Shown here: positions 21,150 to 49,049 of the stretch, one piece after another
How the letters are laid out: each line of letters opens with the position of its first letter
Position numbering within the stretch: position 1 is the first letter of the stretch
NCBI RefSeq assembly: GCF_042100115.1
Contig: NC_091272.1
Span: forward strand, 6,448,001-6,512,000
Direction of reading: 5' to 3'
From: Alternaria dauci
Taxonomy: Eukaryota; Ascomycota; Dothideomycetes; Pleosporales; Pleosporaceae
Length of the DNA: 64,000 nucleotides
Notes under the pieces: generated by a model
Seen by the model: only the letters and a program-made list of their open reading frames with translations
Database searches by the model: none
What the model was told of the DNA's origin: nothing
Translations under genes and position numbers: made by a program

Positions 21150-21625
21150 TGTTACACGGGGTTAGGCTATACTTCTCTAGGCTCGGTCCGTACTAAGGCG
21201 AGGTAGACTAAAGCGGTAGTCCGTGAGGTATCGTATGGAATGATCAGGTGGAAAAGAGTTATCGTTGTAACTAAAGGATAAACAATACTAATTCTATAAA
21301 CGATAGAATAACTAGTTAACAATCTGTGTAAGAGATGAACTATTTAAGTTGACCACAACGAGTGTAATAATAAGATCTAACACATTCTTATACCTATTGC
21401 TATAGGTCCTGTCCTCCTTGCCCTCCCTTCTAAGAGGGAGGCCTAGGAGGGCCGTGACCTCCTAATCCTTACTAGCCTCCTAGAGGCTAGGTCTTAGCGG
21501 GATACTATTCCTTTCACGTGATCTAGGCCCCGCCCTAGATCCACTTTCGTCTATCGTGTCCGCCTGATGGTCTTCCTTCCTGCGACCTGCATGAAAGGGA
21601 AGCAATTCCTTGTTACCTTGTAACA
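21150..21625 (-). repeat. 5' LTR of chromovirus A
   Basis: The 476 bp LTR is the same length as the left copy. Its differences are mainly C to T and G to A transitions, concentrated in the right two thirds as written on the plus strand. The first 130 or so bases are nearly unchanged. The sequence just inside it on the minus strand (CTTTGACCACCTTGGATATC) should hold the primer-binding site, but I could not assign a tRNA. Confidence 0.95.
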
Positions 21626-29774: not shown

Positions 29775-30248
29775 TGTTACACGGGGGTTTGCTATACTTC
29801 TCTAAGCTCGGTCCGTACTAAGGCGAGATAGATATTGGCGATAGTCCGTGAGGTAGGATATGGAATGATCAGGTGGAAAAGAGTTATCGTTGTAACCAAA
29901 GAATAACGCTACCAATTCTATAACAATAGAATAACTAGTTGACAATCTGTGTAAGAGATGAACTATTTGAGTTGACCACAACGAGTGTAATAATGAGATC
30001 CAACACATTCTTATACCCCTTGCCTTAGGTCCTGTCCTCCTTGCCCTCCCTTCCAAGAGGGAGGCCTGGGAGGGCCGTGGCCTCCCGATCCTCACTGGCC
30101 TCCCGGAGGCCAGGTCTTGGCGGGATGCCATTCCTTTCACGTGATCTGGGCCCCGCCCTAGATCCACTTTCGTCCATCGTGTCCGCCCGATGGTCTTCCT
30201 TCATGCGACCTGCATGAAAGGGAAGCAATTCCTTGTTACCTTGTAACA
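29775..30248 (-). repeat. Solo LTR of chromovirus A family
   Basis: A 474 bp copy of the chromovirus A LTR (TGTTACA...TGTAACA) with no internal region and a perfect target duplication CTTAT (29,770-29,774 and 30,249-30,253). It retains many CpA/TpG sites and GC-rich stretches while the DNA on both sides is RIP-saturated. It therefore arrived after the host DNA was mutated. It presumably formed by recombination between the LTRs of a full element. Confidence 0.95.
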
Positions 30249-31247: not shown

Positions 31248-31478
31248 TATAACGTATAGGACACAGCTTAGCTAGAAGGGCACTAAGGTCCTAACATAAT
31301 TGCTTCTCTTGTTATCTCTATAGAGGAGGAACTTACTCTTAACCTGCGCTTCGCGCGTAAGAAGACTAGTAAGAATTATTATTATTACTTCCCCTAGTAT
31401 ACTATTAGAATATAGAGCTATCCCCCACTATTCTCTTGTAGTGTGAAGCAAATACTATTGCCTATAACTATCCCTTAT
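31248..31478 (+). repeat. 5' LTR of chromovirus B
   Basis: Shares the long block GGACACAGCTTAGCTAGAAG and the rest of its length with 37,716-37,946. Differences are mainly transitions. Confidence 0.85.
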
Positions 31479-32639: not shown

Positions 32640-35600
32640 ATATCTTACTGGGCATGAAGCGCACGTGTAGCGTATAAGTAGAATCTGGTTAAGAAAAAGA
32701 ACTTAGGGTTATCCTTGATCCTTAAGTAGATATTAGTCTGATTAGTTAAATTACTGCTGTAGAAATGGGTATGAAGCCTATAGAGAATGTAGAGCTCCTA
32801 AGATTAGGATGGATTAGTCTGTAACGTTAAGGCACCTACGCGGCGTACGCGTTCCAGGTGCGCTTATTAGATGATAATAGTGTAGAACGCCTCACCTAAG
32901 TAACCGCATATAGGGTAGATAAAGAGGGACTTCCTCTTCTCCTAGGGAATCCTTTTCTTAAACAAGAGGATATTTCTATTAATTGTGGGCGCTAAAAATG
33001 GCGCTAGGGATTAACTAAAGCCGACATCTAGTTAGTGAGTATAGAGACTCTCTAAAAAAGCGAAAAGGATTCTAGTTTTACCTACCTCTTGGGAACTCTC
33101 TAATTAACTGATGCTTTCTTAGACTATGATGCGTACGTGTATAACGTCTACGTAGCGTAGGAACTGCGCATCCCTAACGCTTTGTTAGAATATATAGATG
33201 TATTCGATAACACGAAGGCTGTAACTCTTCTAAGTTATAAGAGTTTAGATTATGTAATTCCTATCTAACTAGGTAAAGAGCCGCCGTACGGACCGCTCTA
33301 TACGCTCTCTTTACGTAAGCTTTAACTGCTCCGTAAATACATAGAAGAGGCTCTTCGTAAGGGATGGATCTGACATAGCACTAGCCCTGTAGGCTCACTA
33401 ATTATCTTTGTGCTAAAGAAAGATGGCACACTTCGCCTTTGCGTAGATTATAGAGGTCTAAATATAGTTACTGTAAAAGATTGTTGCCCGCTCCCACTTA
33501 TTAGAGAGACACTAGATCGCCTGTTAGGCGTACGATACTATACAACGCTAGATCTTAAGGACGCCTACTATCGCATGCGAATAAAAGCAGGAGATAAATA
33601 GAAGACAGCTTTTCGAACTTGATACGGCTACTTTAAGTACTTAGTTATGCCTTTTAGGCTAACTAATACTCTAGTAAGCTTTTAGGCCTATATTAATAAG
33701 GCGTTAAGCGGACATTTAGACTATATTTATGTAGTCTACCTTAATAATATTCTTATCTACACTCACGACGATGATCTTAAGCTGCACTAGCGCGCAGTAT
33801 ACGCTATACTTTAGTCCCTTAGGGAAGCTAAACTTTATACGAACCTAAAGAAGTGCACCTTTGTAGCTGCTAAAGTCTATTTCTTAGGATTTATTGTTAT
33901 AAGGAGCGGCATTCGCGCTGATCCTGCGCGCGTAGAGATAGTACTCTAATAGCTAACCCTAACTAGCATTAAGGAGCTGCAATCCTTCTTAGGGTTTACT
34001 AATTTCTATCGACGCTTTATTAAGCGCTATGCTTAGGAAACAGCCCCCCTTACCGATATTCTAAAAGGGAATTAAGTCTTCTACTAGGATGATGCTATAG
34101 AAGCCGCCTTTACTAAGCTAAAAGAACGCTTTACATGTGCGCCTATTCTGCGCTACTTTAATAAATCGCTGCAGATTTGTATTAAGACAGATGCCTCAAC
34201 ATTCGTAATCTTAGGTATACTTTCTTAGCTATTTGAAGATGAGAAATGGCACCCGGTAGCGTTTATCTTAAGAAAGCTTCAGGCTGCAGAACTAAATTAT
34301 GAGGTGTATAATCTAGAACTTCTGGCTATAGTATATAGCTTTAAGCAGTAGCGGTATTACCTAGAGGGTGCTTATTACACTATCCAAGTTTTGATAGATT
34401 ATAACAACCTGCGCTCTATACGCGCTGTACAGAGGCTTAACCCCCGTTAAGCACGTTAGGCACTCTATTTAGGAGTATTCGATTTTGAAGTAAAACACCG
34501 TCTAGGGAACACTAACCTAGCGGATAGACCCTTAAGAAGAGCAGATTACAAGCAAGAGAACACGTCCTTAACTTAGTTATTGCCTACCTTACAGAATAAG
34601 CTTCTAGTAAGGAATAAACTTAGTAGAGCGAGAGGATCTACACCTAGGCTTAGTCTGGTGAGCGCGTGTAAGACGCACGTTGCTAATATTTACAGAACCG
34701 GTTAGGTCCCTACTGCTAGTGCCATAGGATACATACCATGCGTACCACGCTCACTAGCTAAGGTATTAGTTAGTAGCGAACCTACATTAGTAGAGTCTAA
34801 AGCTTTACTAGATGTTCTACTCTAGTTATAGTAAAGGGACGCCTTTGCCTAGCAGCGGGTCGTAGACTCTAAGCAGGTTTCACGCACTTAAAGCCGCAGA
34901 GGTGCGTAAGTTTAGCGCACTGATCATAAGGAAGTCCTAAGATACAATAGCAGAATTTATGTTCTAGAGGAACCAGCTATTAGGCAGGAAATTTTATCCT
35001 AATACTATAACACGCGCATAGCAGGCCACTTTAGCGCACGTAGGACGCTTAAGCTTATTAGTAGGTACTACTATTAGCTATCGCTTAGCTAAGACGTCCA
35101 GGAATACGTAAGGACTTGTGCTGTATGTTAAAGAAGTAAAGCTACACAGCACAGCAAATATGGTAAGCTAGCATCGCTGCTAATCCTAGAGGACATCTTT
35201 AAGGAAGTCTCTTTGGATTTTGTTACAGGATTACTACTATCAAAAGATAGATTAGGTTGCGTCTTTAATGCGGTACTTGTGATTGTAGACTGCTTCTCTA
35301 AGATGGTTATCTATATACCCGCTTTGAAAACCTAGGATATAAAACAGTTTGCGGAATCCTACTTCGATTAGGTTATTTTGAAATATAGGGTACAGAAAGG
35401 TATCGTATTAGACCGAGGCTCGGTGTTTACTTCCGCGTTTTGGACGGAGATCTGCTACTAACTATAGGTAAAGTGTAGGCTTAGCACAGCCTTCTATCTA
35501 CAGACGGATGGGTAAACCGAACGCTAGAATTAGACTATGGAGCAATACTTGAGAATTTTTGCGTCCGAAAAATAGGACAACTAGGTCTAATTATTGTTAA

Positions 35601-36255
35601 CAGCACAATTCGCTTACAACAACTCTATTCACGAATTAATAAAAGCTACTCCTTTCTACCTTGTTTATAGTAAGTACCCCTTGCTTACAACGCCTCCTGA
35701 GGACAGTAGGTAAGAGGGGGAGGTACTAGATGTAGTAGACAGAGTTTAGCGTATGCATAGCGCACGTATAGCGGTAACAGATTATCTATTAAAAGCGTAA
35801 GAGTATTAAAGCCGCTACTACGACAAGAAATATAAGCTAGACGTTTTTTATGAAGGAGACCTTGTTCTCCTTAGTATAAAGCACATTAACCTGGTTGACT
35901 AACCTAGTAAAAAGCTTTCTAGTAAGTATATTGGACTGTTTCGAGTCTAGAACGCAGTTAGGACGTAGGTATATCGCTTGCTTCTACCGCCTTATTATCG
36001 CATTCACAACGTCTTCTACGTGTCTCTTCTGGAACGATGGAATTCTAGGAAAAATAACGATGATAATACGCAACCACTAGAAGTTACCCTAGAAGGTTAA
36101 GAAGTTTGGGAAGTGGAAAAAATCCTTGGAAAACGTGTAAGAAAAGGCTAGTTACAGTACTGGCTAAGATGGAAAGGATATGATGAATCCTGGGATACTT
36201 GGACCCTAGCCTCTGACTTTGAAGATATGGAAGAACTACTCTAAGACTTTGAAGC
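32640..36255 (+). pseudogene. Pol of chromovirus B, RIP-inactivated
   Basis: Protease remnants lie near 32,700. Reverse transcriptase is clear at 33,410-33,601 ([34 protein letters not shown]). The catalytic YLDD now reads YLNN at 33,737-33,748, both Asp codons having gone GAT to AAT. RNase H is near 34,180 (IKTDASTFVILG). The integrase zinc region and core are at about 35,020-35,690 (VSLDFVTGL; VLDRGSVFTSAFW; MEQYLRIFAS). The chromodomain is at about 36,105-36,255 (LQYWLRWKGYDESWDTW). Numerous stops are present, nearly all TAG or TAA. Confidence 0.85.
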
Positions 36256-36395: not shown

Positions 36396-37400
36396 TTAAG
36401 CCTCGCTATCCTTATCATCTTTACTACCCTCGCTATCCTCCTCACCCTCGCTATCTCTATCGCCCTCGCTATCTCCACTATCTTCACCACCCTTACTATC
36501 CTCACCCGCGCTATGCTTAGACCTAGCGTCTTCCGGCTGCGCAGCTGGCGCGTTAGCAGCGCCATCCTCGCTCTCCCTATCTGACGGACCGTCATTATTG
36601 TTATTATCGTCATCGCTATTACCGCTAGCACTATTCTGGAAAAAGTTAGTTAAGATGAATAAAGTTAGAAGATGAAGCGCAAGAGTATACTATGATCGCC
36701 GTATGACTAACTAGCTGCTCTAAGGCAGCGGCAATCCTGCGCTGCTTAACTAGAATTAGGCTGAGAAAGTTAGAGGAGGTTGTGGGAATCTGGGTGGGAA
36801 CTCCTAGAGGAGTCCTAGAGTGAGTAGTGATGCGTCGGCGGTTGGTGAGCTCTAAGTTGAACTGGCGCTGCGCGCGCGCAAGCTTGACACCTGTACGAAG
36901 CACTGCGGCGTTGGTCTTAGGAGTGGTGGTACCCCTTATAGCGGTATTGTACTTCGCGCGTAAGCGGTATAGACGATTGACGCAGGCGTTTAAGTTAGTG
37001 GGAACCTGTGAAGATTAGCTAAAGCGTAATACGCCTGAAAGACTTCAAAGAACTTACTAAAGTACAACCGCCGCGGTTGCTAGAACTGTAGTGATTATAG
37101 CGACGCTTGTCTAGCTTCTTACAAATCTGCTTTTGCTTGCAGATAGTTTGAGCGCAGCGTAGGTAAGTCGCGTAAGTAGCGATCGCATTAGCGCGCTTAT
37201 TACTATCGCTCTAAGCGAATGCCACAGTATTCTAGAGGTAGGACTTCTTGATGTATCGCGGATTAGGATAATAGACTATATTAGGAAGCTTGTAGCTTGC
37301 GTAGAGGGTGCGATTGAGGTATATGTTAGTGTTAGTGCGAAGGTGTTAAGCAAGGTGTTAGAAAAATTTCTATTACAATAAATAATAAACGGACGGTTAC
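36396..37400 (-). pseudogene. Antisense gene of chromovirus B: three exons, acidic C-terminus
   Basis: This is read opposite to gag-pol between the chromodomain and the 3' LTR. Exon 1 (start undefined, about 37,400 down to 37,058) reads LRTNTNIYLNRTLYASYKLP and later LRCAQTICKQKQICKKLDKR, with stops at apparent Gln codons. Intron 1 is 37,057-37,006 (52 bp; donor GTAAGT, branch GCTAAT, acceptor CAG). Exon 2 is 37,005-36,691, basic (VNRLYRLRAKYNTAIRGTTT; ARAQRQFNLELTNRRRITTH). Intron 2 is 36,690-36,636 (55 bp; donor GTATAC, branch CTAAC, a pyrimidine run, acceptor CAG). Exon 3 is 36,635-36,396: NSASGNSDDDN, then repeated DSEG units to a TAA. Both junctions are phase 0 and keep frame. No family is recognised. 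Confidence 0.6.
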
Positions 37401-37715
37401 TACAGAAAATTCTGCTCTTACCTTACTAAAAATTCTGCAACCCTAAAGAGGAAGTAAACAAAAAGTTGCCTTTACTATAATAAAGTGAAAGTGTAAGGGT
37501 GACTTATCCTAAAATCCTTAGTCACCTCTATATCGCTCTTAGACCTAGTAATGAGCATAACACGCTCTACCCTAACGCTATATCTATATAGCGCAAGATA
37601 GACGCGCGTAAGATAGACTAAAAGACTAGACACTCTTTTCCTATTTTCTAATAAAGATTTTAGGTTTTTATTAAGGCTAGGACTGTTGAGGACGCCAGCC
37701 TAAGAGGGGAGGTTC

Positions 37716-37946
37716 TGTAATATATAGGACACAGCTTAGCTAGAAGGGCACTAAGGTCCTAACATAATTGCTTCTCTCGTTATCTCTATAGATAAGGAAC
37801 TTACTCTTAACCTACGCTTCGCGCGTAAGAAGACTAGTAAGAATTATTATTATTACTTCCCCTAGTATACTATTAGAATACAGAGCTATCCCCTACTATT
37901 CTCTTATAGTGTGAAGCAAATACTATTACCTATAACTACCCCTTAT
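37716..37946 (+). repeat. 3' LTR of chromovirus B
   Basis: Begins TGTAATATATAGGACACAGC directly after the polypurine tract. Partner of 31,248-31,478. Confidence 0.85.
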
Positions 37947-40870: not shown

Positions 40871-41164
40871 TATTTATACGGGTGTTAGAGTGTATAAAGA
40901 TATTAATATCTTAGTATTAAAGTTTTATCCTCTACGTAGCTAGTAAGGCGCTTACAAGTAGGTAGTAGATAGAAGTAATTAATTATTATAAGAAGAGTAG
41001 TAAGTGTATTCTATAATATTAAAGGGAGAACTTATAAAAGAAGATATAAAGGTTTTATAGTAGATTTATAGGTGCGTCCCTAGATATTAATAATCCTTAA
41101 AAAAGAATTAAGAGGGAAGAGTATTTATAGTAAAGCCCTCTTACTTACTCTATACACTAGTACA
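40871..41164 (-). repeat. Right (5') LTR of the old Gypsy element
   Basis: Partner of 22,105-22,433. It ends CACTAGTACA and is followed at once by CTAAGGTTTAATAGG, the resumption of copy W. Confidence 0.7.
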
Positions 41165-42307
41165 CTAAGGTTTAATAGGTGTCTTTTTAGTTACCTTTAG
41201 TAAATTTTTTTAACTCTAGTTTTTATATATAGATATTAGAGCTTTACTACTCTAAAATACTAATTAGTCTAGCGTTTAAATTACGTTATTACTTTATCTT
41301 TTTTTATTAACTTTTATAACTAATAAGTAGAGGGATAGCTACTCTTTACTTTTATAAAGTTTTATTTTAATAATACCCCCCCTACTTATAGAAAACAAAA
41401 AATTATAAATAAGGGTCCTTTATTTTATCTAGTATATATTTCCCCTTTTAGCGTCCTAATATTCTACTAAAAATTAATCTTTTTTTAGCCTATATACTAG
41501 GCTAATACTAACTAATACCTACTTACTCCCTTTCTAGCCTAGTTACTATATTACCTTCTTACTCTAAACTATAACTATTTATATACCTATTTTACTTATT
41601 ATACCTCTTATAATACTACTACCTAAGTACTATAAGTATAGTAAAGTACTAAGCGCTATAATAGATACGTTTTAGTTTAGGAAATAGAAGTAAAACTATA
41701 CTACTTACCTTCTACTTATATATATATACTAATATAATAATATATATATAACTTTAAAGCGTTAGAGCCTTATAATATATACCTTAACCTCTACCTCTAT
41801 TCTACTCCTACCCCTAATAGTAAATCTAGAAATTATATTACTTATACCTATCTACTTAAACCCTTTATTATTATTACTTTATACTTAAATACTTCTACCT
41901 ATACCTCCTCTACTTTTATTTACTATAACTATATTTATATCCTATCTTAATTTAATACTATAGCTTAATAGTATATTTAGAAGTATAATATCTTTATTAT
42001 TAGTTAACTCTATAGTAGCTAGTATAAGTAGTATAAGATATATACTTATACTATCTATACTTATAAGGTCTATACCTAGTAATATAAACTTATTTTATAG
42101 TACTACTTCTATCTTTATATCTTAGCTAGATTTAGAAATATAAGAGCGTAATAATAAGAGTAGTATTAGTAAAAGTATTAGCTAAGGTATTAGTCTTACT
42201 AAATTTAAATTAGTAGAGCGCCTTATATATAATATACCTTAAATACTACTACTTATAAACTTAGAAAACTTAGTATTCTTAGAAACTAATACTCTAATAG
42301 ACTCTAA

Positions 42308-43676
42308 TTAGCTTCGGCCTTTATAGACTTTTTTTTTATTATTATAGTACGTTTAGAGACTTTTTTAAGATAAAGCGCTAACTAAGTAACTATAGGCTTA
42401 TACCTATATTTAGTATAGCTAGTATATACGTAGTATATTATAAACGCTAGATACTAAAGATATATAATAGTATTATACGCCTACTAGAGATAAGATAATT
42501 TATAGTAACCTTCTAACTTACACGCTATCCCCTACTATCTTCTACTATCCTCTACTATCCTTTACTATATCTGCCCTTTATAACCGCTGCTACTACCTCT
42601 ACCCCCTCCTAAGAATAACTAACTAGCTACCTATAGTGTAGCTACTACTACTACTTAATAATTAGCTTTAGTTAGAGGAATATTAATAGTAGCGTAGCCT
42701 ACGCCTTATTCTTTTATCTTTATAGTATCTCTTTAAATTCCCTCTCCTTAAGCCTAAGATACTAGTCCTTAAGCGCCCTTTTAATATTAATAGCTTAGTA
42801 GTATAGCTATCTCTTAGTCTCCTTACTCTACCTACTAAAGGTTAGGTAGGTAAGGTAGCTAAATATAAGGAGATTAATAAGGTAGTAGGTATTAGTATAA
42901 ATAATCTCTTTATACTTTATAACCCTCTTTAGATACTATATTCTAGTCTTTTTATAAGTTACCTCTATAATAATATTACTAACCCTAGACCTCTTAATAA
43001 GGTACTAGCTAAAAGAATTACTATTACTAAGGATTTAGAGTATAAGAGGTATTTACTCTTCTAGCTCCTTACTAACTACTATATTTAGCTTATAAGTATA
43101 TATAAGGCTTATATTATTTATATTTAATAAGTTAAGGGGCTCCTTACTAGAGAGGGTATACTAGCCTAGCTAGATAGCTATAATAAGTTACCTTAAGGGA
43201 AATATATATTCGTATATAGTATAATTTAATTATAAATAGTATAATTTAATTATATATAGTAGGATACTTAAAGTAAGTTAGTATTAGTATAAAGGTTAGA
43301 ACTAGCTAGGCTTTTATAGAAGTATATAAAATTCTAAGTAAGCTTAATTATAGTAAAGATACTATATCCTCCTCCCTTTGTAATATATTATAATTATATT
43401 ACTAGTTAATACTAGTAATCCCTATTAGGCCTACTAAGGTTCAATAGGTGTCTTTTTAGTTACCTTTAGTAAGTTTTTTTAACTTTAGTTTTCGCGCATA
43501 GACGTTTAAGCTTTACTACACTAAAATACTAATTAGTCTAGCGTTCGAATTGCGTTATTACTTTATCTTTTTTTTTATTAACTTTTATAACTAATAAGCA
43601 GAGGGATAGCTACTTTTTACTTTTTTAAAGTTCTATTTTAATAATACCCCCCCACTTACAGAAAACAAAAAAATTA
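42308..43676 (+). mobile_element. Copy X of the LINE/SINE-like element
   Basis: 1,369 bp with a 13 bp target duplication TAATAGACTCTAA at 42,295-42,307 and 43,677-43,689. It begins TTAGCTTCGGCCTTTATAG and ends CCCCCCCACTTACAGAAAAC then an A-rich tail. The tandem ATAATTTAATTA units sit at about 43,214-43,262. It is uninterrupted and slightly less RIP-mutated near its 3' end, keeping CG and CA sites. Confidence 0.8.
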
Positions 43677-44414
43677 TAATAGACTCTAAGATAGTCTTAG
43701 TTACTAAGTTTTATTATAAGATTATAAAGATTTATCTTAAGATATATAATACTTATAACTATATATAATTTAGGATTAATATTTTTAACTATAAATATTT
43801 AGCCTATTTAGAAGATTATATAAACTACTTTAGTATAGATAGATTTATACTACTTTTTAGTTAACTTAATAATATTAATCTTAGGCTTATACTACCTAAG
43901 TTACTTACTCTAACTTATATTAAAGAGATACTTCTTATATATATCTATATCTTTATAGAGGTCTACTAGTATTATAGTCTTTAATATAAGTACTATAGCT
44001 ATATATATAACTTTATAGTTAATACTATAAAAGTCTTTAATTAACTACCTCTTCTTCTATCTTATTTTAATATTATTATTCTAAAACCTTTACTTTTAGT
44101 AAAGGATAATCCTAATATAGTTAATTAGTAATTCTAGAAGGACTATAAAGTCTAAAGAGTAGTTATTATATAGTAGATATACTTTCTAAAGGATAACTAC
44201 CTTAGTTAGTTTAATATTATTATTAATAAGTTTACACTTAATACTCTCCTTATTAATAATTATATTAATAACTAGCTTATAACTATTATCTAAGATCCTA
44301 CTACCTAAGTTAACTAGACTATATAATCTTCTTCTATATTACTAATAAATAACTAATATAATATAATAGAAAGGTTTATATAAGAGTATAATTCTAGTCC
44401 TATAAGTAGCTATA

Positions 44415-45742
44415 ATTTTCTATTTTCTATGAGTGGGGGGGTATTATTAAAATAAAACTTCAAAAAAGTAAAAAGTAGCTATTCCTCTACTTATTAGTTA
44501 TAAAAGTTAATAAAAAAGATAAAGTAATAACGTAATTTAAACGCTAGACTAATTAGTATTTTATAGTAGTAAAGCTCTAATATCTATATATAAAAACTAA
44601 AGTTAAAAAAATTTACTAAAGGTAACTAAAAAAGATACCTATTAGAAACCTTAGTAGAGGTCTAATAGGGATTACTAGTATTAGCTAGTAATATAATTAT
44701 AATATATTATAAAGGGAGGAGGATATAGTATCTTTACTATAATTAAGCTTACCTAGAATTTTATATATTTTTATAAAAGCCTAGCTACTTCTAACCTTTA
44801 TACTAATACTAACTTATAAGCTTTAATACCTTTAAGACTTTTAAGACTTACCTTATATATAAACTACTATATATATAATATATTTCCTCTATATTATCCT
44901 CTAGGAGGTCTTCTATTATAGCCTAAAAACCTTAACTAGATAAGTACTAATTAATCTATCTAATATATAATATACTAGCCCTATATATACTTAGTAGCTA
45001 CTTAAGGTAGTCTATAATAAGTTAGATAAGTAATTACTAGAGTTCTACTATATATTCTAAGATAGTAGAGTATCTAAGAGGGATTAGATTAACACCTATA
45101 TTAGTAATATTATTATAGAAGAGACTATTAAGGAGAGGAAGATATAGATATAGTAGAAGAAGGTTAGGGAGGTTAGCTATAAACTCTTTATATTTAGCTA
45201 TATCTTTCTCTTCTACTAAGGGGGCTTTAGGTAAGAAACCTAGGCTTAGTGATATAAGTAAGTAGTAAATATTAAATAAATAATAGAGGATTAATATCTA
45301 AGGCTTAAAGAAAGGGAATTTAAATAGATATTATAAAGATAAAAGAATATAATATAGATAGTATTACTACTAATATTCCTTTAGTTAAAGTTAAAAGTAT
45401 AGTAGTAGCCCTAGGTAGTTATTCTTAGGAAGGGGTAGTAGTTATAAAGGGCGGCTATAAGGGTTATAAAGGGTAGATATAGTAAAGGATAGTAAAGGAT
45501 AGTAGAAGATAGTAGGGGATAGTGTATAAGTTAGAAGGTTACTATAAATTATCTTATCTCTAGTAGGCGTATAATACTATTATATATCTTTAGTATCTAG
45601 TATTTATAATATACTATATATATACTAGTAGTACTAAATATAAGCTTATATAAGCTTATAGTTACCTAGTTAGCGCTTTATCTTAAAAAAAGTCTCTAAA
45701 TATACTATAATAATAAAAAAAGTTTATAAAGACTAAAGCTAA
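44415..45742 (-). mobile_element. Copy Z of the LINE/SINE-like element, inverted
   Basis: 1,328 bp on the minus strand with a 15 bp duplication CTATAAGTAGCTATA at 44,400-44,414 and 45,743-45,757. On the minus strand it begins TTAGCTTTAGTCTTTATAAA and ends ...CCCCCCCACTCATAGAAAAT with an A-rich tail. Confidence 0.8.
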
Positions 45743-46673
45743 CTATAAGTAGCTATAGGGCCTCTATATAAAATAAGGTTAATAAAGATAGGGATCTTCT
45801 ACTTAAAGTTATAGTAATTCCTAATATTATAGCTAATATTAGTAAGTTTAAAGTACTATAAGAGTAAATATAGTCTAATACTTAGGATATATTTTTATCT
45901 ATAGGATCTATTTAATATATACTAATATTAGAGTTTAATAGTAAGGAAAAGTATTTATCTCTTACCTTCTTATCCTTATACCTAACTAAGTAGGTAGACT
46001 TTATATAGCCTTAACTATAGGAGATTAGCTATACCTTATATATTAAGCTTATAATCTACTATTAAGATAGAAGGTTTACTTACTACTTACGTTTCTAGTA
46101 TACTATATTTAATACTTTAATATACTACTAGTTAAGGGATAAGATAAACTTTTTTATAAAGTATTAAGCTAGTAGTAACTAAATATTATTAGAAGATATC
46201 TAAGTAGCTTTTAATAGTAATAATAGAGGCTAGCGCCTTATAAACTTTATTATCTACTAGTTAGTAATAGTTTATAAGACTATAGTAGAGTAATTTATTA
46301 CTAATTCTCTATTAGGAATAGGTACTTAATATAGTAAGTAAGTATAGAAATATTAAAAGAAGTATATATTATAGTTCTTATCTTATAGCTAAATACTATT
46401 TAGCTAGTTTTTATAGGGCCTCTTTTTCTTATACTATCCTTAAGCCTAATAGTTCTTTAACTACTTATACTTCCTTTAGTTCCTCTACTATATCCCTCCT
46501 TTACTTAAGAAGAAGGCCTCCTCTTCTTTAACTAGAATAACTCTTAGACTTACTACTATATAATAAAACCTATATATAACCTTAATAAGTAGACCTATAA
46601 GTCCTAAACTAGATACTAAAGTCCTCTCTCTTAGTATAATTTACTAACTATTTATCCTATACCTCCTTATACT

Positions 46674-48074
46674 TAGCTTTAGCCTTTATAAACTTTTTTT
46701 TTATTTTTATAGTACGTTTAGAGACTTTTTTAAGATAAAGTGCTAACTAGGTAACTATAGGCTTATATAAGCCTATATTTAGTGTAGCTAGTATATACGT
46801 AGTATATTATAAACGCTAGACACTTAAGATATATAATAGTAGTAAGTTATACGTAGACTAGAGACTATAAGACGTAACCTTCTAATATATATACTATCCT
46901 CTACTATCCTCTACTATTTCCGCCCTTTAAAACCTTTATAGCCGCCCTTTGTAACTACTACTACCTCTGCTACTACTACCTCTACTACCCCTACTACCCC
47001 TTCTTAAGAATAATTAACTAGCTACCTATAGTATAGCTACTACGACTACTTAATAATTAGCTTTAGTTAGAGGAATATTAATAGTAGTATAGTCTACGCC
47101 TTATTCTCTTATCCCTATAGTATCTCTTTAAATTCCCTCTCCTTAAGCTTAAGATACTAGTCCTTAAGCGCCCTTTTAATATTAATAGCTTAGTAGTATA
47201 GCTATCTTTTAGTCTCTTTACTCTACCTACTAAAGGTTAGGTAGGTAAGGCAGCTAAATATAAGGAGATTAATAAGGTAGTAGGTATTAGCGTAGATAAT
47301 CTCTTTATACTTTATAACCCTCTTTAGATACTATATTCTAGTCTCCTTATAGGTTACCTCTATAATAATATTACTAACCCTAGACCTTTTAAGAAGGTAC
47401 TAGCTAATAGATTTACTATTACTAAGGATTTAAAGTATTAGAGGTGTTTACTCCTCTTACTCCTTACTAACTACTAGATTTAGCTCCTAGGTATATATAG
47501 TAGTAGGGCTTATATTATTTATATTTAATAGGTTAAGGGGCTCCTTACTAGAGAGGGTATACTAGTATAGTTAGATAGCTATAATAAGTTACCTTAAGGA
47601 ATATATATATTTATATATAGTACGATTTAATTATATATAGTATAATTTAATTATATATAGTGTAACTTAATTATATATAGTAGGATACTTAAAGTTAGTA
47701 TTAGTATAAAAGTTAGAAGTAGCTAGGTTTTTATATAACCCTTCTTAGTTATAGTAAATATACTATATCCTCCCCTTTATAATATATTATAATCGTATTA
47801 CTAGCTAATACTAGCAATCCTTATTAGATCTCTACTAAGGTTTAATAGGTATCTTTTTTAGTTACCTTTAGTAAATTCTCTTTAACTTTAGTTTTTGTAT
47901 ATAGATATTAGAGCTTTACTACTATAAAATACTAATTAGTCTAGCGTTTAAATTATGTTATTACTTTATCTTTTTTATTAACTTTTATAACTAATAAGTA
48001 GAGAGATAGTTACTTTTTACTTTTTTAAAGTTTTATTTTGAATAATACCCCCCTACTTATAGAAAATAAGAAAT
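46674..48074 (+). mobile_element. Copy Y of the LINE/SINE-like element
   Basis: 1,401 bp with a 16 bp duplication TATACCTCCTTATACT at 46,658-46,673 and 48,075-48,090. It begins TAGCTTTAGCCTTTATAAAC and ends ACTTATAGAAAATAAGAAAT. The tandem ATAATTTAATTA units are expanded here (about 47,612-47,665). Confidence 0.8.
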
Positions 48075-49049
48075 TATACCTCCTTATACTATATCCCCTA
48101 ATTCCTATTATAATTTTAATTCTTTTCTACTATATTATCCTTATTCTCTTCCTCTTCCTTTATAGTTCTTAAGATAGACTACTTCTTCTTCTAAAAGTCT
48201 TTTAGGATTTATTAGAAGTTACTTTATATTTAACTAAGTTCCTATAGCTATCTACTATTCTTTTTATCTAATTCTTTTTCTACTCTACTTAGCTAACCTC
48301 TATACTATCTAGAATACCTTTACCTCCTTTAATAGTACTATATAGATTACCTTTTATATCCTAAGTATATTCTAAATATCCTTTAGTACTAGCTATAGGA
48401 CCTACCTTTTCTATAAACCTTAATATTACTCTAGCTCTATTTATTACTAAAGGCTTTTTAGTGCCTAGTAACTAAATACTAAATAATAATAATACTACTT
48501 CTATTTACTTCTATTTACCTTACTTCTTCTTTCTCTCTATAAGGTAGATATTATATATAGAAAGGTAAGCTAGTTATAAAGGTAGCTTATATTTAGAATA
48601 GAGAATAGTAGATAACCTCTAGAAGAGAGGAAGAGGGAAGGGAGGAAGATATAGTAAGAGGAGAGAGAGCTAAGAGAGGAGCTAGGCCTAGTTAGGCCTA
48701 GTATCCTCTAGGTAGTAATACTCCCTTATATATACCCCCCCCTAAAAAAAGAGGCTTAGCTAGTCCTCTAGCTAGTATAAAGAAGAGAAAGTAATATAAA
48801 GTTAAAAAAGTATACTAAAAGTATAAAAACTACTAGACTTTATACTTTTTAAAAACTAGGTATAGTTTATATAAGGCTATATATATCTATAAGGTTTCTT
48901 ATATAAAAAAGTGTATCTCTAAGCTATTTTCTACTACCTTAACCTTAGGATATAAAAACTAAGCTAATTAGTATTCCTAGATTATATAAGGGACGTTTAA
49001 TTTAACTAGTTACTATAGGTTAGGTATATACTATACCTATAGAATAGCT

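Follow-up and report, generated by a model that had tools for sequence, protein, structure and literature searches.

Introduction

Several long terminal repeat (LTR) retroelements have been described, in the passages cited here, as encoding an additional protein on their antisense strand. In Boty-like elements of Botrytis cinerea and Sclerotinia sclerotiorum, the additional gene brtn is situated after pol and before the 3' LTR, on the antisense strand (PMC7264820), and the gag-pol of Boty includes a CHROMO domain (PMC4227169). Among plant elements, Grande of maize carries gene23, an antisense accessory gene with its own promoter and a nuclear protein product (PMC7264820, PMC11963269), and the antisense open reading frames (ORFs) of Retand elements, with their TRP28 domain, are predicted to confer DNA binding and have been proposed to play a regulatory role (PMC11963269). 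Such a role has been put forward for the antisense ORFs of plant elements, nuclear localisation being reported for Grande (PMC7264820, PMC11963269). A retroviral counterpart is HBZ of human T-cell leukaemia virus type 1 (HTLV-1), a nuclear protein encoded antisense (PMC11963269), for which an antisense promoter lies within the 3' LTR (PMC7264820). The present work examines a stretch of 64,000 nucleotides from Alternaria dauci (C1:6448001-6512000, hereafter the window), in which a Ty3/Gypsy chromovirus with the marks of repeat-induced point mutation (RIP) carries, at the corresponding place, what is almost certainly, to judge from its sequence, a protein-coding antisense gene with two introns.

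Results

The antisense gene occupies positions 36396-37279 of the window and consists of three exons totalling 777 nt, a multiple of 3 (Table 1). Annotated fungal proteins confirm its strand, frame, start, joins and acidic tail and, as far as sequence comparison can establish it, bear out the spliced coding gene that the initial annotation had proposed on the strand opposite gag-pol of a chromodomain-bearing Ty3/Gypsy element; its position inside the element is likewise established. A search of a protein collection with exon 2 alone yielded 10 relatives among 17 candidates (E 5.4e-28 or better, 61-68% identity), and a profile built from these extended the group to 38 related proteins, among the 8000 candidates sharing most words. 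Comparison of the exons with fungal proteins, which had been suggested as a check, thus came out in favour of the gene. By the profile search, the relatives form a diverse family from several fungi and from metagenomes; scans of viral (viral_contigs) and prokaryotic (genome_contigs) contigs found no relative. Seven of the 38 carry an organism name, and every one of these is annotated as a hypothetical protein: P0018 (AA0117_g13260, 242 residues) and P0019 (IG631_00987, 237 residues) of Alternaria alternata, P0020 and P0033 of Alternaria gaisen, P0029 of Pyrenochaeta sp. (217 residues), P0024 of Paraphaeosphaeria sporulosa and P0026 of Kalmusia sp.

Eight of the relatives, namely the seven organism-named proteins and P0010, were compared with the window by tblastn with the low-complexity filter off. 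Residues 1-74 of P0018, P0019, P0033 and P0029 align without gaps to the whole of exon 1 (40-47% identity over 75 aligned residues), and residue 75 of each of the four corresponds to the first codon of exon 2, which makes join 1 exact. Join 2 is exact in P0020, whose match to exon 2 reaches residue 126, two codons short of the exon end, and starts again in exon 3, with residue 129 on the first codon. Both introns had therefore been placed correctly, and their donor, branch point and acceptor stand in the order proposed, GT, CTAAT and AG in intron 1 and GT, TTAACTAAC and AG in intron 2 of the window copy. The tail matches of P0018, P0019, P0026 and P0033 are gapped, and the tails of P0010, P0024 and P0029 did not match the window separately. 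The beginning of the gene has to be revised: coding had been thought to start near 37400, yet the relatives start at 37279 and none of the eight matches 37280-37400. A search of the whole genome with P0019 recovered the window copy with E 3.1e-12 for exon 1 and E 7.3e-35 for exon 2.

The full-length relatives comprise about 220-240 residues. Their N-terminus is basic and bears six cysteines, the middle domain is likewise basic and is conserved, and the tail is acidic. Net charges by exon are +12, +15 and -20 in the window copy, and the same order of signs is found in P0018, P0019, P0033 and P0029 (+7 to +11, +7 to +10 and -11 to -19); the basic middle and acidic tail read from the window alone are thus upheld, the tails being matched in the relatives. 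All four of these proteins contain in exon 1 the motif C-X2-C-X10-C-X7-C-X2-C-X7-C, with identical 2-10-7-2-7 spacing. It consists, as in Zn2Cys6 (GAL4-type) clusters, of six cysteines in two halves, each led by CX2C. The first half of a canonical Zn2Cys6 cluster reads CX2CX6C, and the present motif departs from it in having X10 in place of X6. A match of the distant relative P0036 to PF03693 (ParD; E 0.0032) fell below the cut-off and was set aside.

The relatives also bear on the second intron. P0012 and P0016 resemble raw open frames, in that they continue past exon 2 through an intron-like stretch and then enter the acidic repeat in the wrong frame; P0019 is nearly the same as P0016 in exon 2, yet has the acidic tail. 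Intron 2 therefore seems to be present in the DNA of the relatives, as read from their protein sequences alone. Several single-exon relatives run past exon 2 with a valine where the donor GT would stand. In the exon 2 columns of 34 aligned relatives (the 38 without P0012, P0016, P0034 and P0038), 21 representatives remain at 80% identity, and the 560 pairs with enough shared columns have a median identity of 62% and a minimum of 32%; such conservation across species is supportive and does not amount to a test of the ratio of nonsynonymous to synonymous substitution (dN/dS), because protein collections hold only open frames. A few extra residues are seen in the first third of exon 2 in P0023, P0024, P0026-P0028, P0030-P0032 and P0035-P0037, some of which also have a longer exon 2 end, and this sequence pattern suggests several subfamilies beyond the Alternaria type.

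The genome searched comprises 34.9 Mb in 10 contigs and holds 18 near-full-length copies of the antisense gene, along with one fragment (L019) that is excluded from every copy count. Donors 1 and 2 are GT and both branch-point strings are unchanged in all 18, and the acceptor AG is present in 4 of 18 copies at intron 1 and in 14 of 18 at intron 2. The terminal TAA is found in every copy and ATG at the start position in none, the window copy having ATA at 37279. All 54 exon copies are divisible by 3 in length, in keeping with the frame-keeping three-exon pattern first noted in the window. Two in-frame stops interrupt the window copy, both in exon 1 at 37234 and 37213, and the other copies have 10-16 internal stops. 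Positions 37234 and 37213 are stops in 18 of 18 copies; none can therefore be read through in this frame, and the 18 examined are dead. The initial annotation took the visible stops for former Gln codons, a view that the four full-length relatives do not support, as none of them has Gln at either position. Compared with the window copy, the others show chiefly C>T and G>A changes, and each has 0-19 transversions. The copies therefore stem from similar ancestors, and most of their damage is due to RIP. Distinct insertion and deletion events, counted without the alignment ends, were multiples of 3 in eight of eight cases in exon 3 and in none of nine in the flanks and LTR interior; exons 1 and 2 had none, and the spacer between the start and the 3' LTR had seven, none a multiple of 3.

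A search with the reverse transcriptase (RT) gave 25 matches, of which the five weakest are short pieces on contigs C7 and C10. Fifteen RT copies, counting that of the window, extend to the 3' end of the query, and each of them is followed on the other strand, 1,995-2,029 bp downstream, by the antisense gene. Seen from the gene, 15 of the 18 copies face a scored RT match on the opposite strand, and the remaining three face integrase-end sequence, with an LTR adjoining. No gene is listed near the RT fragments at C5:934-936 kb and C8:125 kb, neither of which extends to the query 3' end. When the whole genome was searched with P0019 and P0029, nothing beyond the element copies matched at E <= 0.001 among the best candidates scored. 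The gene resembles the aORF-3R type in being present in most copies of its element, in lying opposite gag-pol and in its position, following the chromodomain and preceding the LTR that begins at 37718. In one RT copy the two parts (C1:4639208-4639715 and C1:4646886-4647408) stand about 7.2 kb apart, probably through a nested insertion within an element carrying the antisense gene at C1:4649404.

Table 1. Features of the antisense gene and its host element, in window coordinates.
Feature	Position	Strand	Evidence
Exon 1, 74 codons, basic, six-cysteine motif	37279-37058	-	gapless match to residues 1-74 of P0018, P0019, P0033, P0029
Six-cysteine motif	37165-37064	-	three of six positions Cys in the window copy, the other three Tyr
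Intron 1, 52 nt	37057-37006	-	GT...CTAAT...AG; join at residues 74|75 of four relatives
Exon 2, 105 codons, conserved basic middle domain	37005-36691	-	E 7.3e-35, 62% with P0019
Intron 2, 55 nt	36690-36636	-	GT...TTAACTAAC...AG; join at residues 128|129 of P0020
Exon 3, 79 codons and TAA, acidic tail	36635-36396	-	matches to the tails of P0018, P0019, P0020, P0026, P0033
Spacer, antisense start to 3' LTR	37280-37717	-	position only
5' LTR of host element	31250-31478	+	direct repeat pair with 37718-37946, 229 nt, 95% identical
Part of reverse transcriptase, gag-pol strand	33374-33601	+	PF00078 RVT_1, E 1.2e-5, below curated cut-off
Part of chromodomain, end of pol	36152-36241	+	PF00385 Chromo, E 0.0013, below curated cut-off
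3' LTR of host element	37718-37946	+	direct repeat pair with 31250-31478

The host element is classed as a Ty3/Gypsy chromovirus by its LTR pair, RT and chromodomain, the RT and Chromo matches being below the Pfam cut-offs in these damaged fragments. The ratio TpA/ApT is 1.93 in the gag-pol stretch versus 0.71 and 0.69 in two flanking gene blocks, and the composition of the element is that left by RIP. Elsewhere in the window, a second LTR-like pair of direct repeats (21150-21598 and 29775-30221; 88-91% identical, 8.6 kb apart) encloses a strongly RIP-damaged stretch with a GC content of about 25%, in which tblastn with the same eight relatives found no match at E <= 0.01. Positions 40874-48088 hold a tangle of direct and inverted repeats in stretches of 60-300 nt, the inverted arms being up to 98% complementary; these are probably nested RIP-damaged elements, some of them in common with 21.6-22.4 kb.

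Discussion

The window gene would best be explained as an accessory gene, genuine but here damaged by RIP, that a Ty3/Gypsy chromovirus carries antisense in the interval from pol to the 3' LTR and that is read in the direction of pol. Its transcript may start in the 0.44 kb spacer or in the 3' LTR, where an antisense promoter would be needed, and would be spliced at two short fungal introns, as their sequence predicts. Such introns could survive retrotransposition because they lie on the antisense strand, and splicing would therefore mark a true antisense transcript. The product is presumably a nuclear protein, whose cysteine-rich basic part may bind nucleic acid and whose acidic tail may contact the transcription or chromatin machinery of the host. 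It might thereby tune how the element is expressed or integrated, as has been suggested for the antisense-encoded proteins of plant elements and some retroviruses. That a protein-coding, two-intron antisense gene is here combined with a regulatory role, taken broadly, is likely, and a regulatory role of the antisense protein, considered by itself, is given somewhat less than an even chance. More tentatively, the relatives may constitute an unnamed family, headed by a zinc-cluster-like motif and ending in an acidic tail, which is encoded antisense and spliced in Ty3/Gypsy chromoviruses across the Pleosporales and acts as the elements' own regulator of transcription or chromatin, HBZ-like by convergence, with many fungal hypothetical proteins as its members.

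Other explanations differ as to whether the gene is real, where it came from and what its product does. The minus-strand open stretches at 37210-37019, 37014-36646 and 36689-36396 cover the greater part of exon 1 and the whole of exons 2 and 3, and they could in principle be chance open frames in a GC-richer patch, accompanied by chance splice signals. The open frames alone are indeed weak evidence: of 2000 first-order Markov simulations of the region, 22 produced a stop-free run at least as long as the longest observed, 122 codons, and the acidic exon 3 is repetitive, of low complexity and open in several frames. The gene is lifted above chance because one and the same set of annotated fungal proteins is matched by all three exons, in their order and with exact joins. 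A chance origin is thus rejected by homology and retains a practically negligible probability; the early estimate that accident was improbable holds on these grounds, although the open frames by themselves would not have sustained it. It is also very improbable that the element captured a host gene by transduction and carries it as a passenger. Two introns in a retroelement gene do look host-like, and they could persist on the antisense strand, where they would not be removed from the genomic RNA. Against capture, the searches with P0019 and P0029 disclosed no match at E <= 0.001 outside the element copies among the best candidates scored, the gene stands beside every RT copy that reaches the query 3' end, and the relatives are a diverse family spread over several fungi and metagenomes.

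If the gene is real and the element's own, its protein might work in the particle or the pre-integration complex, as a nucleic-acid chaperone or in nuclear import or integration targeting, and not in transcription. The strongly basic exons 1 and 2 and the cysteine motif would suit a chaperone, and nuclear import of the pre-integration complex has been raised in connection with plant antisense ORFs (PMC7264820). This proposal is nevertheless rather doubtful, as the protein has no Pfam or PDB similarity to a known protein, and expression from its own strand with splicing would make stoichiometric packaging less natural. Still less would be expected of the antisense transcript as the functional product, with the protein secondary, although it would be complementary here to the gag-pol transcript and might pair with the genomic RNA to control copy number or feed small-RNA silencing, a role that has been raised for plant elements (PMC7264820). 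An RNA would have no need of the protein sequence that is kept among the 34 aligned relatives, and this possibility is judged unlikely.

Several observations weigh against the preferred reading, that of a protein-coding accessory gene with a regulatory product. When the stop-free part of exon 1 was used alone as a query, no candidate was returned, and exon 1 was confirmed instead through searches with the full-length relatives. The relatives are known as entries of protein collections, which by their nature hold open frames. The cysteine motif is left out of the gene models of P0020 and P0024 and lies before the start of that of P0026, which perhaps reflects annotation errors. A search for selection on the antisense frame, which had been proposed as a check, gave no support: with transversions, a change that RIP does not make, no selection was visible among the 18 copies (11, 14 and 11 at codon positions 1, 2 and 3, of 259 columns each), as expected because these copies are dead. 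The in-frame lengths of the exon 3 insertions and deletions could be due in part to that exon's own 9-, 12- and 18-base repeats. The Pfam Zn-cluster family gave no match among the relatives scanned, with an E limit of 5, and because of this and of its longer first loop (X10) the motif is called zinc-cluster-like and is not counted as a member of Zn2Cys6. Finally, Pfam, NCBIfam and PDB gave no match of weight for the antisense protein, and none that supports a function.

The value of the antisense gene lies in a testable protein family for a class of retroelement genes whose functions have been described as unknown (PMC7264820). It suggests, in addition, that transposon genes account for a group of hypothetical proteins, so far without names, in Alternaria and its relatives.

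Comparison with known antisense genes

Among the described genes, brtn of Boty is alike in belonging to a fungal, CHROMO-bearing element and in lying antisense, as an extra gene, between pol and the 3' LTR. The likeness is one of description, and no Botrytis or Sclerotinia protein occurs among the seven organism-named relatives, which is weak evidence that the present protein is different from BRTN or distant to it. The Retand elements differ in being non-chromovirus elements of plants, and the word intron is absent from the main text of PMC11963269; PF04195, the domain of the Retand antisense ORF, had no match in the nine relatives scanned. Grande gene23, also compared by description, shares the status of an antisense accessory gene of an LTR element and differs in its plant host. 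HBZ is a spliced bZIP protein of an animal retrovirus and serves as an analogy only, no homology being claimed. The open-licence literature searched yielded no antisense gene in an element of the Pleosporales, nor this protein family or the two-intron form. The initial annotation had regarded a spliced antisense gene as unusual for Ty3/Gypsy elements, yet the gene is of a known kind, since antisense genes at this place have already been described in plant Gypsy elements and, as brtn, in the fungal Boty; within that kind, it apparently has a protein family of its own.
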